Assembly: GCA_009929275.1 (NCBI GenBank)
Contig: SAAW01000010.1
Span: 1-38,624, forward strand
From: Clostridia bacterium
Lineage (GTDB): Bacteria; Bacillota; Clostridia; Christensenellales; UBA1242
Length of the DNA stretch: 38,624 bases
Direction: 5' to 3'
Shown here: piece by piece, positions 15,233 to 38,624 of the stretch
Position numbering within the stretch: the stretch's first letter is position 1
How the letters are laid out: every line of letters starts with the position of its first letter
Position numbers and translations under genes: made by a program
The notes under the pieces: model-generated
The model's input: the letters and a program-made list of their open reading frames with translations, nothing else
Database searches by the model: none
What the model was told of the DNA's origin: nothing

Positions 15233-15918
15233 TTATTTTCACCAAAAAGACCTAATAAAAAATCACTATATTTTTTTTGCAATTTTAAAAGTTTAATTCT
15301 TTCAGTAAATATTGCTTTTTGACTTTCTTCTTTTAAACAAAAATTTGACATAATGTGATATCTTGTTCTTTCAATTCCAAAATACTTGAAAAAGATTTTA
15401 AGTAAAACAGAAAAATCATTCTTATATTTTTTTATATAAATTTCTTTCTTTATTTCAAATCTTTCTGGTGTTAAGTTTGCATATGTCATCAATTTGAAAC
15501 CTAGATTTTTTTTAAAATCTTCAATATAAACTTTTTGACCATTCAAATAGATAAAATAAATAGTTTTTTCAATTTTTGAAATGTCACAATTAAAACAGTC
15601 CAAAAAAATTTCTTTTCCTTCAACTTCCTGTCTTTTTTTTGTTTTGCCCAAATTATAAACTTCGTGGCGATAGACTTCAATGTCATAATCCGTAGGATTT
15701 CTGTAAAATTTTGAAAATAGAAGGCTAATTTTATAGTGATAAAGAATTTTAATCTTGCCTTCAACGACATGACATTTACTCACCAATTTTTTGTCGCACA
15801 GCCCTAAAAGCATCAGTCCAATTGAACCCGCAAAAGAATAAATAATTCCCTTCTCGTCTTCTTGTGGATATTTTTTTATTATAGCCAAAATATTTTCAAC
15901 AAACTCAGACTTCTTCAC
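15229..15918 (-). CDS. nucleotidyltransferase-like protein, unknown role
   Basis: Two hundred twenty-nine residues, GTG start behind a perfect GGAGG. The N-terminal part has IIYSFAGSIGLMLLGL, then RNPTDYDIEVYRHEV, then FLDCFN. This order (Gly-Ser helix, then Asp-x-Asp in a strand after an R-x-P-T-D) is the hallmark of the nucleotidyltransferase fold used by AbiEii-type and DUF6036-like proteins, and the later helix with KLMTYANL fits the C-terminal helical half. It is coupled by ATGA to the P-loop gene downstream. I cannot place it in a named family; the fold call is inference from spaced motifs. An NTase plus kinase pair resembles toxin-antitoxin or defence modules but could also be tRNA or sugar metabolism. 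Confidence 0.5.
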   Translation of the reverse strand: MKKSEFVENILAIIKKYPQEDEKGIIYSFAGSIGLMLLGLCDKKLVSKCHVVEGKIKILYHYKISLLFSKFYRNPTDYDIEVYRHEVYNLGKTKKRQEVEGKEIFLDCFNCDISKIEKTIYFIYLNGQKVYIEDFKKNLGFKLMTYANLTPERFEIKKEIYIKKYKNDFSVLLKIFFKYFGIERTRYHIMSNFCLKEESQKAIFTERIKLLKLQKKYSDFLLGLFGENK

Positions 15919-34100: not shown

Positions 34101-34327
34101 AAAAATTTCCTCAAAATAGAATTTGAACATTTCTAGTATATTTCAAAGAGATAAGAAAATCAAATGCTTTTATTTTATTAGCATAAAAACAAAGATAAAA
34201 TTATCTTTAAACATTTTTTCTTGCAGTAAGATAAAAAAAGTAGTAGAATGATTTTTGTTAAACATAGCGGTTGTGAAGCGTAATTCTATTTCAAAAAACG
34301 CTTGCTAAGGTTTAAAGTTATTCATAT

Positions 34328-34400
34328 GCGTCACTAGCTCAATTGTATAGAGCATCGGTCTTCGGAACCACTCTTCGGGGGTTCAAAAAACACGGCTAAA
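34328..34400 (+). pseudogene. decayed tRNA-Arg copy
   Basis: GCGTCACTAGCTCAATTGTATAGAGCATCGGTCTTCGGAAC is nearly the 5' half of the intact tRNA-Arg 86 bases on, but the anticodon stem is broken (TCGGT against ACCAC) and the 3' half reads GGGTTCAAAAAACACGG with no matching acceptor strand. A tandem duplicate that has lost function, or a scar of an earlier integration. Confidence 0.75.
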
Positions 34401-34413
34401 AAAAACTTAATAT

Positions 34414-34490
34414 GCGCCATTAGCTCAATTGGATAGAGCATCAGTCTTCGGAACTGAGGGTTACGTGTTCAAATCATGTATGGCGCACCA
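34414..34490 (+). tRNA. tRNA-Arg (TCG)
   Basis: GCGCCAT pairs with ATGGCGC; anticodon stem TCAGT/ACTGA encloses CTTCGGA, giving anticodon TCG. T arm ACGTG/CATGT with loop TTCAAAT, CCA encoded. Its 3' end is the likely attachment site of the element to the right. Confidence 0.95.
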
Positions 34491-34499
34491 GAAAGCCTT

Positions 34500-34639
34500 T
34501 TGCCGAAAAGGGCTAAAGCCCTTTGAACGCCAAGGTTCTCGCATTGCGAGGTTCTTATATTATGGGTATTGTAGCAGTTGCCGAGCCTAATTATAAATTA
34601 GGCGAACGCCAAGACAACACGTCGTGTTGTCTTATTTTT
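34500..34639. repeat. paired two-hairpin modules with shared linkers
   Basis: Two units of the form TTGCCGA, hairpin A, GAACGCCAAG, hairpin B. Unit 1: linkers at 34500 and 34525-34534, stems AAAGGGCT/AGCCCTTT and CTCGC/GCGAG. Unit 2: linkers at 34578 and 34604-34613, stems GCCTAATT/AATTAGGC and AAGACAACA/TGTTGTCTT. The linkers are identical while the stems are unrelated yet always paired. Unit 2's last stem is followed by TTATTTTT. Confidence 0.7.
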
Positions 34640-34768
34640 ACAGGTCGCTACTTTTTTATTTTATTGCCAAAAATTCGAACCCCTAAAACGGTTTTTTGCT
34701 TGTTTTTGGTTACAATTTTTCATAGATAAAAATACATCAATTTTGACCAAAATGTTCAAAAAAGTGCG

Positions 34769-34801
34769 TTTGTCACGAATTTGTCACGAATTTGTCACGA
34801 A
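34769..34801. repeat. three tandem TTTGTCACGAA repeats
   Basis: Perfect 11-bp unit three times in direct tandem, between the attachment site and the integrase gene. The position fits arm-type binding sites of the integrase at 34917 (inference). Confidence 0.8.
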
Positions 34802-34882
34802 TTTTTGCAAGAGTGCCGTATTTTATCGTATGTTTACGCCTATTATTTTTTGGTGATTTTTGCAAAAAATCTGCAAACATTA

Positions 34883-34914
34883 AAAAAGGCAAGATTTCAA
34901 AATCTTGCCTTTTT
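34883..34914. terminator. strong bidirectional terminator after the integrase gene
   Basis: AAAAAGGCAAGATTT and AAATCTTGCCTTTTT form a 15-base inverted repeat two bases before the minus-strand integrase stop codon. Confidence 0.9.
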
Positions 34915-34916
34915 CC

Positions 34917-36167
34917 TTACATTTCAGACTCATCTTGCATTCTTTTCTTCCGTTTTTCTGCAAGCAATCTTTCCAACTCTTTAATTTCATCGTCTATCAT
35001 TTGCTTTTCATCTTTTTCACTTAGCATAGAACTTATTATGTTTGCAGATTCTATTTTGGCTGAGAAATCAAGATGAGAATATATGTCTGCCGTTGTGCTA
35101 AAATTTGAATGCCCTAACCACTCTTGAATATTTTTCATGGGAACACCACTAGCCACAAGCAAACTTGCGCACGAATGCCTTAGGTCATGAAAGCGAATGT
35201 GCTTAAGACCATTTGCCCTTAAAAGTTCTCTAAATTTATTTGAGACATAATCAGGGTTAATGATGTCGCCAATATCATCTACAAAAACATAGTCTAAGTA
35301 TTTTTTGTTATAACTTCTGCCATACATAAGTTTGTTATCTTCAATCTCTTCTTTTCTTTCAATCAGTAATTTTTCAGTTTCTGGCAACAACGGAAGCTTT
35401 CTATGACTTGATGCCGTTTTCAATGTGTCGGATAAATATACTCTTCCCTCAACCGTTAAAATTTTATGGCTTATTGAAATAATCTTATTTTCAAAATCTA
35501 TTGCACTCCATTTAATCCCCATCAATTCACTTCTTCTTAAGCCATAATAAGCGGCCATTCGCACAATTAAACCGATTGCCGTTTTGTCGGTTATTTTAAA
35601 CAGCTCATCTAGTTCTTTCTTGTTATAATAACTCATTTTAGATTTTTCTTTCTTTATCTTCGGCATAAACTCATAAGGATTTTTTGATATCAAATCATCT
35701 CTATATGCCTGTCTTAGTGCTGGAGATAAAATAATTGCATGATGCTTTACTGTAATGTTTTTATTGCCTCGCTCTTTCTTAAGATAATCATAGTAGCTTA
35801 GTATGTGTTGATATGTAATATCTTTTAGTTTTTGCTTTTTCCCGAAATACAATTTCATTATTTTGTGACAAGATATATAAGAGTGATAAGCAGGTGGTGA
35901 AAGCTCTTCTTTTTTTGCATCAATATAACTTTTGATATAGTCCACAAAAATAATATCATTACTTGTTTTAGGCTTTTCATTCTTTTGAATACTTTCAATT
36001 GGTTTATAGGTTTCTAGTTCTTTTTGCAAAAAAAGTTGCGCCTCTTTTTTATTACCTCTTTCACTTAACCCTGTTGGAATCCACTTTTGTTTATATCTTC
36101 CAAATTCGTCCTTATAATTTACAACTGCATAGAATAAACCGTTTTTAACTTTCAATCTTCCCGTCAT
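34917..36167 (-). CDS. int: tyrosine-type integrase of the tRNA-Arg element
   Basis: Four hundred sixteen residues. N-terminal arm-binding domain (LKVKNGLFYAVVNYKDEFGRYKQK), SAM-like domain (FVDYIKSYIDAKKEELSPPAYHSY), catalytic domain with YGLRRSELMGIKW (Arg I), LPLLPETE hairpin, HDLRHSCASLL (His and Arg II), LGHSNFSTTADIYSHL (His and Tyr). All catalytic residues are intact. This is the Tn916/phage-like integrase layout. Its start codon overlaps the stop of the upstream HTH gene (ATGA); GGAGG lies nine bases before it. Likely recombines at tRNA-Arg. Confidence 0.96.
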   Translation of the reverse strand: MTGRLKVKNGLFYAVVNYKDEFGRYKQKWIPTGLSERGNKKEAQLFLQKELETYKPIESIQKNEKPKTSNDIIFVDYIKSYIDAKKEELSPPAYHSYISCHKIMKLYFGKKQKLKDITYQHILSYYDYLKKERGNKNITVKHHAIILSPALRQAYRDDLISKNPYEFMPKIKKEKSKMSYYNKKELDELFKITDKTAIGLIVRMAAYYGLRRSELMGIKWSAIDFENKIISISHKILTVEGRVYLSDTLKTASSHRKLPLLPETEKLLIERKEEIEDNKLMYGRSYNKKYLDYVFVDDIGDIINPDYVSNKFRELLRANGLKHIRFHDLRHSCASLLVASGVPMKNIQEWLGHSNFSTTADIYSHLDFSAKIESANIISSMLSEKDEKQMIDDEIKELERLLAEKRKKRMQDESEM

Positions 36168-36376
36168 AACTGGTCGCCTCCGTAAATATAAGCAATCACA
36201 TTCAGTTTTGAAATTTTGTAATCCTTTCCTATTTTGATAGATTTAATCATCCCACTCTTTAATAACTCATAAGTCTTTGTTCTTTTTATTCCAAGCATCT
36301 TTGCAAGTTCCTGCACACTCACACAGTCAGGATATTCTTTAAACATGAAGTTTGTCATTTCATTTATATTCGTCAT
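36164..36376 (-). CDS. xis: excisionase-like helix-turn-helix protein
   Basis: A small protein with a MerR/AlpA-type winged helix: VSVQELAKMLGIKRTKTYELLKSG then IKSIKIGKDYKISKLNVIAYI. This is the excisionase-family DNA-binding domain that bends attachment-site DNA and sets the direction of recombination. The track begins with a GTG at 36388; AGGTGGGG makes the ATG at 36376 (MTNINEM) the better start, about 70 residues. It overlaps the integrase by four bases and follows directly on the degenerate recombinase gene, so all three are translated as a chain. Confidence 0.78.
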   Translation of the reverse strand: MTNINEMTNFMFKEYPDCVSVQELAKMLGIKRTKTYELLKSGMIKSIKIGKDYKISKLNVIAYIYGGDQL

Positions 36377-36384
36377 GCCCCACC

Positions 36385-37077
36385 TCACATTTCCATCTCA
36401 GACTTAGATTTTCGATCCATCTGACTACAATCAAGCAAATTATTAAGTGCAGTTAAAAACCTCTTGTTTTTAAACAAATTATAGTTATTGTAAGTATTTT
36501 TTGGTTTGTTGAATTTGTGGTCAAATCTCGTCCAAGCTCGGTAGTAGTCATAATCTCTCGACTGGTTGCAAATGAAGCCTTCTAGGCTTAATCTAAGCCC
36601 TGAAACCAGCACCTCAGGTAAATCATTATCTCTGCAGAGATATCTTATGTTTCTGCTTAGTGTGTTTACATTCATTCTTGAACCATCTTTCTTTAAACAA
36701 ACATAGTTTATGTTACTATCGTCGCCATGCTTTTCAAAGTCTAGTTCTTGTTGTTCTTTCAGTTCTAAAAGCAGTTTTTTAATGTGTGGCAAAAGAGGAA
36801 AGGTTCTTTTAAACTCAGTCAATTTTTCAATGTACCAGCTGTAATAAAACTTATTTGTCACTGTGTATGAAATTGGATGTATTTCAATTCTATCATTCTC
36901 AAAATCAACATCTTGCCATTCTAAACTCATTAGTTCCAATTTAGAAAACTGATATGCCAAAATGAGTTTAATGTATATTTCATACTTTGTGTCTTTTGTA
37001 AACTTTAAAAACTTCTTCACTTGTTCAAGAGTGAGAAGATTTTCTTTGCGAGCATTAATATTTTTTTTACTTATCAT
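36385..37077 (-). CDS. degenerate tyrosine-recombinase-like protein
   Basis: A catalytic-domain-only relative of tyrosine recombinases. LLTLEQVKKFLKFTKDTKYEIYIKLIL and KLELMSLEWQDVDFEND match the start of the catalytic domain, but Arg I of G-L-R-x-S-E-L is Ser (QFSKLEL) and the H-x-L-R-H box reads SGLRLSLEG, losing both His while keeping Arg II. FDH and NTYNNY might stand for the last His and the Tyr. No arm-binding domain. The track starts at 37113; AAAAGGA precedes the ATG at 37077 (MISKKNINARKEN), so about 230 residues. Its stop codon (ATGTGA) overlaps the start of the HTH gene. Probably an accessory or regulatory partner of the integrase rather than an active enzyme. Confidence 0.65.
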   Translation of the reverse strand: MISKKNINARKENLLTLEQVKKFLKFTKDTKYEIYIKLILAYQFSKLELMSLEWQDVDFENDRIEIHPISYTVTNKFYYSWYIEKLTEFKRTFPLLPHIKKLLLELKEQQELDFEKHGDDSNINYVCLKKDGSRMNVNTLSRNIRYLCRDNDLPEVLVSGLRLSLEGFICNQSRDYDYYRAWTRFDHKFNKPKNTYNNYNLFKNKRFLTALNNLLDCSQMDRKSKSEMEM

Positions 37078-37220
37078 TATTTTTTTCCTTTTCAATTCTA
37101 GTTTTATCTCCATCAGTTATCTCGTTCAAATAATGATCTCTCTTTCAATTGTTGTGTTTTGTTTTACTAATACCTCCTCATTTTTTAAATTTTTATATCT
37201 CTAACTCTTTTATGTCCCTC

Positions 37221-37541
37221 TATAATAGTGGTTTTTGTAAACTCTTTTTAAGGCAATTAACTGCGAAATCATTAAACATAAAACAACCTTTCATAGCACA
37301 AAAACACATTTTCCCCTTCTATAATAGTGCTTTTAGTAAACCCCCTTTTGACATAATTTCAAGTAAAAATGATTGTTTTTGGCCTTTTACTTTTTTACTT
37401 AACCTCTCAAAACCCTTTATTTATAAAGGTTTTAAACTTTTTAAAACTTTTTTGCAAATTTCCCAAAAACACTCGTTTTTGTAAACCCCCTTACATAAAA
37501 TTTAACATGTTTTTCAGTATAGTGGTTTTTGTAAACCACTA
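37221..37541. repeat. four iteron-like TATAATAGTGGTTTTTGTAAAC sites
   Basis: Copies at 37221-37242, 37320-37341 (GCTTTTAG variant), 37470-37486 (3' part only) and 37518-37536. The last extends into a perfect inverted repeat, TAGTGGTTT-TTGT-AAACCACTA (37520-37541). Two copies are followed by CCCCCTT. All face the same way. They lie upstream of the recombinase operon, so they are either operators or origin iterons. Confidence 0.75.
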
Positions 37542-37937: not shown

Positions 37938-38624
37938 ATGAATAATTCATCAGAAACTAGTAGCTTATTATTTCCTAATTATGAGTATAGAAAGCTTTTT
38001 AGCAAGTTTTCTACAAACGAACTTAATAAGTTTAAAACCTCAATTCAAGAACAATTTCAAAAGATTATTTGGAATGATGAAACATATTCTGAGTGGAAGG
38101 CAAGAACATATTTTTCTATAAAAATGTGTCTATCAGCAACAATAATGTTGAGTTCATTATATTACTCAATGGACAAAAATCTAAAAGTTGTGGAACCATA
38201 TTTACTTTATTATTCTCTATTAAATTCTTCAAGGGCATTCCTTTCTTTAAACCCTAATGAAAACTGGAATAATGGCGAAATGTTAAAAAATAGCCATTCA
38301 AAAATAATTAATTCTAGTGCGAGTTATGCACAATTATTAAATAAAGAATTCTCTACAAATTTCAAAAGAGATTTTTTATCACTAAGAGATTATAGAGAAT
38401 CATTTTCTTATAAATTCCCTTCGGATGGATTGGGCATTTTTAAAGGTGTATCAAATATAGGAATGGTTGAAGAATATTGTATTATTTTACTAGAAATCAC
38501 ACAATATAGTAGTGAAATATTAAGTAAAGTGTTTCTTAAAAAAAATCAGAATTATAATGATTATAAATTTTTAAATAAATATTATGATAAATTTTGCCTT
38601 GTTGATTTTTATGATGAAACACAT
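37938..38624 (+). CDS. partial cargo gene, YaaC/HEPN-like helical protein (tentative)
   Basis: An open frame of 229 codons that leaves the window, so it is absent from the ORF track. GAAGGAG lies eight bases before the ATG. The protein is predicted helical, with YLLYYSLLNSSRAFLSLNPNE then KNSHSKIINSSASY. That Y-Y-S-L-L-N-x-x-[RK]-A-[FY]-L plus later His resembles YaaC-like proteins and related HEPN-type helical domains, some of which belong to defence systems. The match is weak and the C terminus unseen. It lies in the cargo position of an integrated element, with its own promoter, and is very AT-rich. It could equally be an unrelated helical protein. Confidence 0.6.
   Translation, partial: MNNSSETSSLLFPNYEYRKLFSKFSTNELNKFKTSIQEQFQKIIWNDETYSEWKARTYFSIKMCLSATIMLSSLYYSMDKNLKVVEPYLLYYSLLNSSRAFLSLNPNENWNNGEMLKNSHSKIINSSASYAQLLNKEFSTNFKRDFLSLRDYRESFSYKFPSDGLGIFKGVSNIGMVEEYCIILLEITQYSSEILSKVFLKKNQNYNDYKFLNKYYDKFCLVDFYDETH

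Follow-up and report, generated by a model that had tools for sequence, protein, structure and literature searches.

The locus described here raises the question of why a recombinase gene that seems to have lost its active site is kept in one coupled unit with an excisionase-type gene and the gene of an intact integrase. The stretch analysed, called the window below, is one whole contig of 38,624 nucleotides (end at 38624) from a draft assembly of 1.18 Mb, and the contig stops inside the element that carries these genes.

The gene trio and its first product

The trio consisted of three co-directional ORFs on the minus strand, and neighbours shared 4 bases (GTGA, then ATGA). The first gene (36385..37077, minus strand) encodes a recombinase reduced to its catalytic domain, referred to here as the pseudo-recombinase. 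The second (36164..36388, minus strand) encodes an excisionase-type HTH protein of 74 aa that matched HTH_17 and TIGR01764 'excise' and is kept in all trios, while the third (34917..36167, minus strand) encodes a full-length tyrosine integrase (Int) of 416 aa with all catalytic residues, matching Phage_integrase and Phage_int_SAM_5 (SAM-like core-binding). A preliminary description of this DNA had reported four-base overlaps between three such genes, including the excisionase-like HTH and the full integrase. This was borne out, and the same trio was found in 18 further genomes, so the arrangement is not due to chance. The ORF of the pseudo-recombinase is open up to an ATG at 37113 (36385-37113, minus strand), which gives a protein of 230-242 aa depending on the start chosen; the ATG at 37077 is the likely translation start because an AAGGA Shine-Dalgarno sequence and the starts of the homologues agree with it. 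An internal ATG (36376) after GAGGTG may be the start of the HTH gene, and the coupling would still be tight. A perfect, terminator-like inverted repeat in the sequence follows int (34883..34914), and four copies of an 18-bp repeat of the ATAGTGGTTTTTGTAAAC type lie upstream of the trio at 37225-37536. The latter repeat was not evident in the upstream regions of relatives.

Pfam Phage_integrase (PF00589) matched the pseudo-recombinase above its cut-off, with E=1.8e-7. The AF2 model had a pLDDT of 85.7, and Foldseek against the PDB returned 23 significant matches, all of them tyrosine recombinases. Tn1549 Int was among the nearest solved structures for the pseudo-recombinase and for the integrase alike, and SroF of phi3T, solved with DNA, was one of the weak fold matches of the pseudo-recombinase. 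When the alignment was limited to the family, confidence was still fair to high over most of residues 27-165 (approximate limits) and the recombinase matches persisted; the C-terminal third was confident only with integrase rows in the alignment. Structure prediction of the protein alone had been proposed earlier as a check, and the model places the protein within the tyrosine recombinase superfamily.

In the window protein, Arg I is replaced by Ser57, the box-II His by Ser171 and His III by Phe, with Glu, Lys-beta, Arg II and Tyr retained. The first two replacements and the catalytic-domain-only make-up had been described before and were confirmed; the loss of His III is added to them. An active-site table was made from 18 complete pseudo-recombinases aligned with their 18 partner integrases. 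Arg I was Ser in 18/18 pseudo-recombinases. The box-II His was replaced by Ser, Asp or Thr and was never His in these complete copies, and His III, changed to Phe or Ala, was absent from all 18. Only a minority had Arg at the Arg II position, and the catalytic Tyr was Tyr in 13 and Phe in 5. All 18 retained the conserved Glu together with another Arg, and had Lys or Arg at Lys-beta. Every catalytic residue was intact in 18/18 partner integrases; the R-K-H-R-(H/W)-Y active site of an active tyrosine recombinase was thus not found in the pseudo-recombinases, from which the arm-binding and core-binding domains are both missing as well. Judged from these residues, catalysis has been lost in the product of the first gene.

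A further feature of the elements concerned protein ends. Glu-Met C-termini were present in 30 of 84 element ORFs (relaxase, pseudo-recombinase, integrase and several ICE ORFs; L037-L052), compared with 0 of 30 for the host ORFs of the window and 0 of 22 for ORFs beyond the tRNA. Those in the window lie at 34920-34925 and 36388-36393. As the Glu and stop codons vary, the ending looks like a protein-level feature. It was found in 14 of 19 HTH-Int integrases from the same taxonomic order, in 0 of 28 from other orders and in 0 of 54 IMG/VR integrases.

Conservation, linkage and origin

The homologue search covered 309 genomes of the bacterial family, and a pseudo-recombinase homologue was present in 18 other genomes, each time directly upstream of HTH-Int. 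The integrase overlapped the HTH gene by 4 bases in 18/18 complete trios (window included), and when the longest ORFs were used, pseudo-recombinase and HTH overlapped by as much as 44 bases or lay as much as 7 bases apart. All 19 integrases of at least 57% identity were accompanied by a pseudo-recombinase, and 1 further candidate was cut by a contig end. Pairwise dN/dS of the pseudo-recombinase was about 0.07-0.22 in informative pairs, with one pair counted as zero having saturated dS, and its distances correlated with those of Int (r=0.87). These sequence comparisons showed the pseudo-recombinase to be under purifying selection and strictly linked to HTH-Int. Simple decay of a duplicated integrase might be read from the missing catalytic residues and the two missing domains, but it is left with next to no probability: 18 intact homologues have the same losses under purifying selection and with conserved overlaps, and a genome survey for the same gene order and losses found 0/18 homologues with a complete active site, which refutes decay as a general explanation. 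Strong support was thus found for the earlier suggestion that the live integrase has a partner that is retained although it does not catalyse.

The genes upstream of the trio differed between relatives. Several relatives have a MobL relaxase upstream (IMEs) and others are ICE-like, with other ICE genes running into the trio with hardly any gap; this abutment fits a role during excision better than a role in quiescence. A relaxase like the MobL of relatives was not found in the window's draft assembly, in which the contig ends inside the element. Upstream of the pseudo-recombinase gene, L040-L046 share a conserved CAGGATAAGCGARAAAC, and in several of them a GGGATACCC palindrome separates the relaxase gene from that of the pseudo-recombinase; this is a likely oriT. 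A role of the protein outside integration, such as in relaxasome/oriT function or in replication of the excised circle, would suit the several IME-type relatives that place the gene after the MobL relaxase and the likely oriT. It is nevertheless very improbable, since the gene stays with HTH-Int despite quite different upstream genes and tracks the integrase clade.

A natural domain swap was seen between L044/L046 and L045/L047/L048. The pseudo-recombinase gene, the HTH gene and the Int catalytic domain were about 90-99% identical in DNA between them, whereas the arm- and core-binding part of Int differed strongly (about 67-79% DNA identity) and the C-terminal tail of Int and the DNA behind int differed still more. 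The swapped elements occupy different tRNA-Arg genes where these were readable. The pseudo-recombinase gene kept 97-99% DNA identity across this change of arm- and core-binding parts and of target, so no fit between its product and the arm sites, core-binding domain or target is needed. The idea that the protein joins core sites, put forward at first, was not supported, given this constancy and the absence of a core-binding domain.

The integrases next in similarity (42-47% identity) also come with the HTH gene, and where sequence ahead of that gene was available, no pseudo-recombinase was found separating it from the genes upstream. They adjoin tRNA-Lys or tRNA-Met where a tRNA was found, with 1 case at tRNA-Arg that a contig end truncates. 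Among HTH-Int modules of this class that are more distant, located mostly at tRNA-Ser and tRNA-Leu, there was no recognisable pseudo-recombinase either. The integrase type therefore has no general need for one. In a tRNA-Asn element from another family, the integrase is sister to the tRNA-Arg clade (support 99/94), and a more degenerate recombinase fragment of 181 aa (Phage_integrase E=4e-6) lies upstream. On this one genome, the simplest reading would be a single gain of the pseudo-recombinase before the tRNA-Arg/tRNA-Asn split.

Other readings were considered and set aside. Recent duplication of the partner integrase is made less likely by the tree, in which the pseudo-recombinase family branches outside the clade of the partners on a long stem, although its placement there is unsupported. 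Candidate orphan copies in four genomes were truncated or decayed ordinary integrases. For a phage or plasmid origin, searches of viral contigs, phages and plasmids gave ordinary integrases or nothing, and tblastn of the pseudo-recombinase against plasmids gave no match.

Helix J, the element ends and the proposed function

Mean column identity over the whole protein was 0.49 for the pseudo-recombinase and 0.69 for the integrase. Residues 148-164 were the only clear reversal along the protein (0.73 versus 0.50), with N148, T151, L152, S153, R154, N155 and Y158 invariant in the pseudo-recombinases. The best 17-column window was matched by 2 of 10000 column shuffles, in which columns were treated as independent. 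The codons of residues 148-164 vary synonymously, which indicates that the constraint acts on the protein. From their position before box II, we take these residues to be helix J. The helix J of Cre and of XerD sits in the DNA major groove, and by analogy that of the pseudo-recombinase presumably contacts DNA, although the same face could instead bind protein. Identity in box II was 0.54 in the pseudo-recombinase and 0.95 in the integrase, and the C-terminal region of the pseudo-recombinase was poorly conserved (0.43).

This distribution bears on a stoichiometric brake, that is, a dead domain that enters Int assemblies by catalytic-domain contacts and poisons or slows them. Strict translational coupling, co-inheritance with one integrase clade and the persistence of the gene beside the Int catalytic domain while other Int parts are swapped would all be expected of a brake. 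However, the protein has no core-binding domain with which to occupy core sites, conservation is highest in the helix presumed to read DNA, and the weakly conserved C-terminal region is the usual place of subunit contacts; a brake is therefore improbable.

The window has a tRNA-Arg (TCG) gene (34414..34490, plus strand), the target of this integrase class, and the integrase ORF is oriented toward its 3' end. Wherever relatives with the trio had a tRNA next to the integrase, it was a tRNA-Arg with the anticodon TCG or ACG. In L046, which is complete (about 15.9 kb), tRNA-Arg positions 32-77 form a perfect 46-bp repeat at both ends, as in an element integrated at a tRNA gene; the window shows one end only. 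Three TTTGTCACGAATTT repeats with 11-bp spacing (34769..34804), which have equivalents in the tRNA-Arg relatives, are by analogy putative arm-type integrase sites. A ACGATAAAATA motif (34819..34829, minus strand), the only perfect match in the window, is a candidate site of the pseudo-recombinase or the HTH protein.

The interval between int and the tRNA in tRNA-Arg elements held the 11-bp arm-type repeats and then, somewhat nearer int, the WACGATAWAATA motif (ACGATA). This motif was present in 11 of 12 tRNA-Arg elements with a pseudo-recombinase, a count obtained with a matrix built from the same sites that it scored, and its association with the pseudo-recombinase gene is confounded with phylogeny. 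Further copies lie toward the far ends of L041 and L042, no more than ~100 bp from the part of the tRNA that is repeated, with weaker copies at the far ends of L040 and L046. It was not found at the equivalent place in five tRNA-Lys relatives, and the tRNA-Asn element had a weakly scoring version, AACGATAAATAA. The ACGATA motif may be read by the HTH protein or by the pseudo-recombinase. Another candidate binding site, an AGCGA...TCGCT inverted repeat beside the tRNA, was rejected because it reads as the terminator of the tRNA gene.

The tRNA-proximal region of the window had further features of its own. At 34491-34640, palindromic repeats of ~150 bp replace part of the tRNA terminator hairpin of relatives, and the element end may be damaged and this copy immobile. 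A decayed second tRNA-Arg, whose 5' half is well preserved as far as the anticodon loop, lies at 34321-34400 just before the intact one and is possibly a relic of an earlier integration. In L041, the far-end 3' half of the tRNA (15602-15647) comes from a different tRNA-Arg than the near end and has the same sequence as in L046, which points to tandem elements having undergone exchange or loss.

Our tentative reading, given close to an even chance, is that IMEs and ICEs targeting tRNA-Arg use the pseudo-recombinase in their integration/excision module as an accessory subunit without catalytic activity. It would be made together with the excisionase-type HTH protein and Int, would bind a fixed element-end site (candidate WACGATAWAATA) via the invariant helix J and/or dock on the integrase catalytic domain, and would set the efficiency or direction of recombination. 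GinC, described below, provides a precedent for this reading. The sister HTH-Int modules that lack the protein count against it. A controller that reads ACGATA-type sites at both element ends and sets direction together with the HTH protein is unlikely. Such a protein would have kept and frozen its DNA-reading helix and given up the core-binding domain and catalysis, and the integrase would be free to exchange its arm- and core-binding parts and its target with the controller constant.

Comparison with known systems

MrpR (YopR), the master repressor of SPbeta, has a recombinase fold in which Arg I is Val or Ser, His is Asn and Glu, Lys and Tyr are kept (PMC10516654). Like the window protein, it is thus non-catalytic, has lost Arg I and the box-II His and retains Glu, Lys and Tyr. 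A DNA-binding transcription factor of the MrpR type, acting on the int module or the transfer genes from outside the recombination complex, would fit this similar pattern of losses, the frozen helix J, which implies a fixed binding partner, and the DNA-bound SroF among the weak fold matches. This possibility is doubtful, as MrpR is a repressor with a core-binding domain, which the pseudo-recombinase does not have, and the family profile gave no match to MrpR 8A0A at E<=1, so membership of the MrpR family was not indicated. In addition, the pseudo-recombinase gene shares a coupled unit with HTH and Int and is not separately expressed, and the ICE-like relatives leave hardly any operator space before it. 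Two points favour an accessory subunit over a repressor of the MrpR type: the position of the gene in the excision coding unit and the location of the candidate sites at the element ends.

The preliminary description had compared the trio with RIT elements and found it different. The difference was upheld, and GinC of GInts (PMC5385486) and Tfp of SEs (PMC10214605) were found to be better yardsticks. RIT elements have three full-length recombinases, which in the archetype all possess the catalytic tyrosine, and their terminal inverted repeats are 34 bp long (PMC10214605). The trio resembles them in having several recombinase genes in a row, but it holds two recombinase-fold proteins, one of them dead. 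GinC is without Arg I, yet ginA, ginB, ginC and ginD are all essential for excision and integration (PMC5385486), and RHRY is absent from Tfp, a recombinase-fold protein of the strand-biased circularizing elements, SEs (PMC10214605). Both are, like the pseudo-recombinase, non-catalytic recombinase folds encoded in the same operon as catalytic tyrosine recombinases. In the operons of GInts and SEs, two of the recombinases are active and GinD/Srap is present as a fourth protein, whereas the trio has one active Int and an HTH_17 protein and falls outside these classes. The tRNA targeting, the Clostridia hosts and the catalytic-domain-only protein are further differences, and these set the pseudo-recombinase apart from GinC and Tfp by description.

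IME8 of Lysinibacillus has a three-gene int operon, Int1-Int2-Hp3, with two recombinases and all three genes required (PMC13239906). Both of its recombinases keep R-H-R-Y, and the third protein, Hp3, is not of the HTH excisionase type. Xis-Int modules of Tn916/Tn1549-type ICEs combine a small HTH protein with a tyrosine integrase, as here, and to our knowledge they have no second, dead recombinase. The trio was not found by text search of the literature, a search whose reach took in few of the subscription papers.

A pseudo-recombinase tied to one live integrase throughout a clade represents a natural separation of DNA reading or docking from catalysis, and the helix reversal and the swap pairs allow site readers and direction control by a non-catalytic recombinase domain to be tested. 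It also suggests that short 'truncated integrases' beside intact ones should not be annotated as pseudogenes automatically. As GinC, Tfp and MrpR are known, a working dead recombinase in an element is not a new idea. What is new is the lineage, the catalytic-domain-only make-up, the combination with a single Int and an HTH protein at tRNA genes, and the evidence of the frozen helix.
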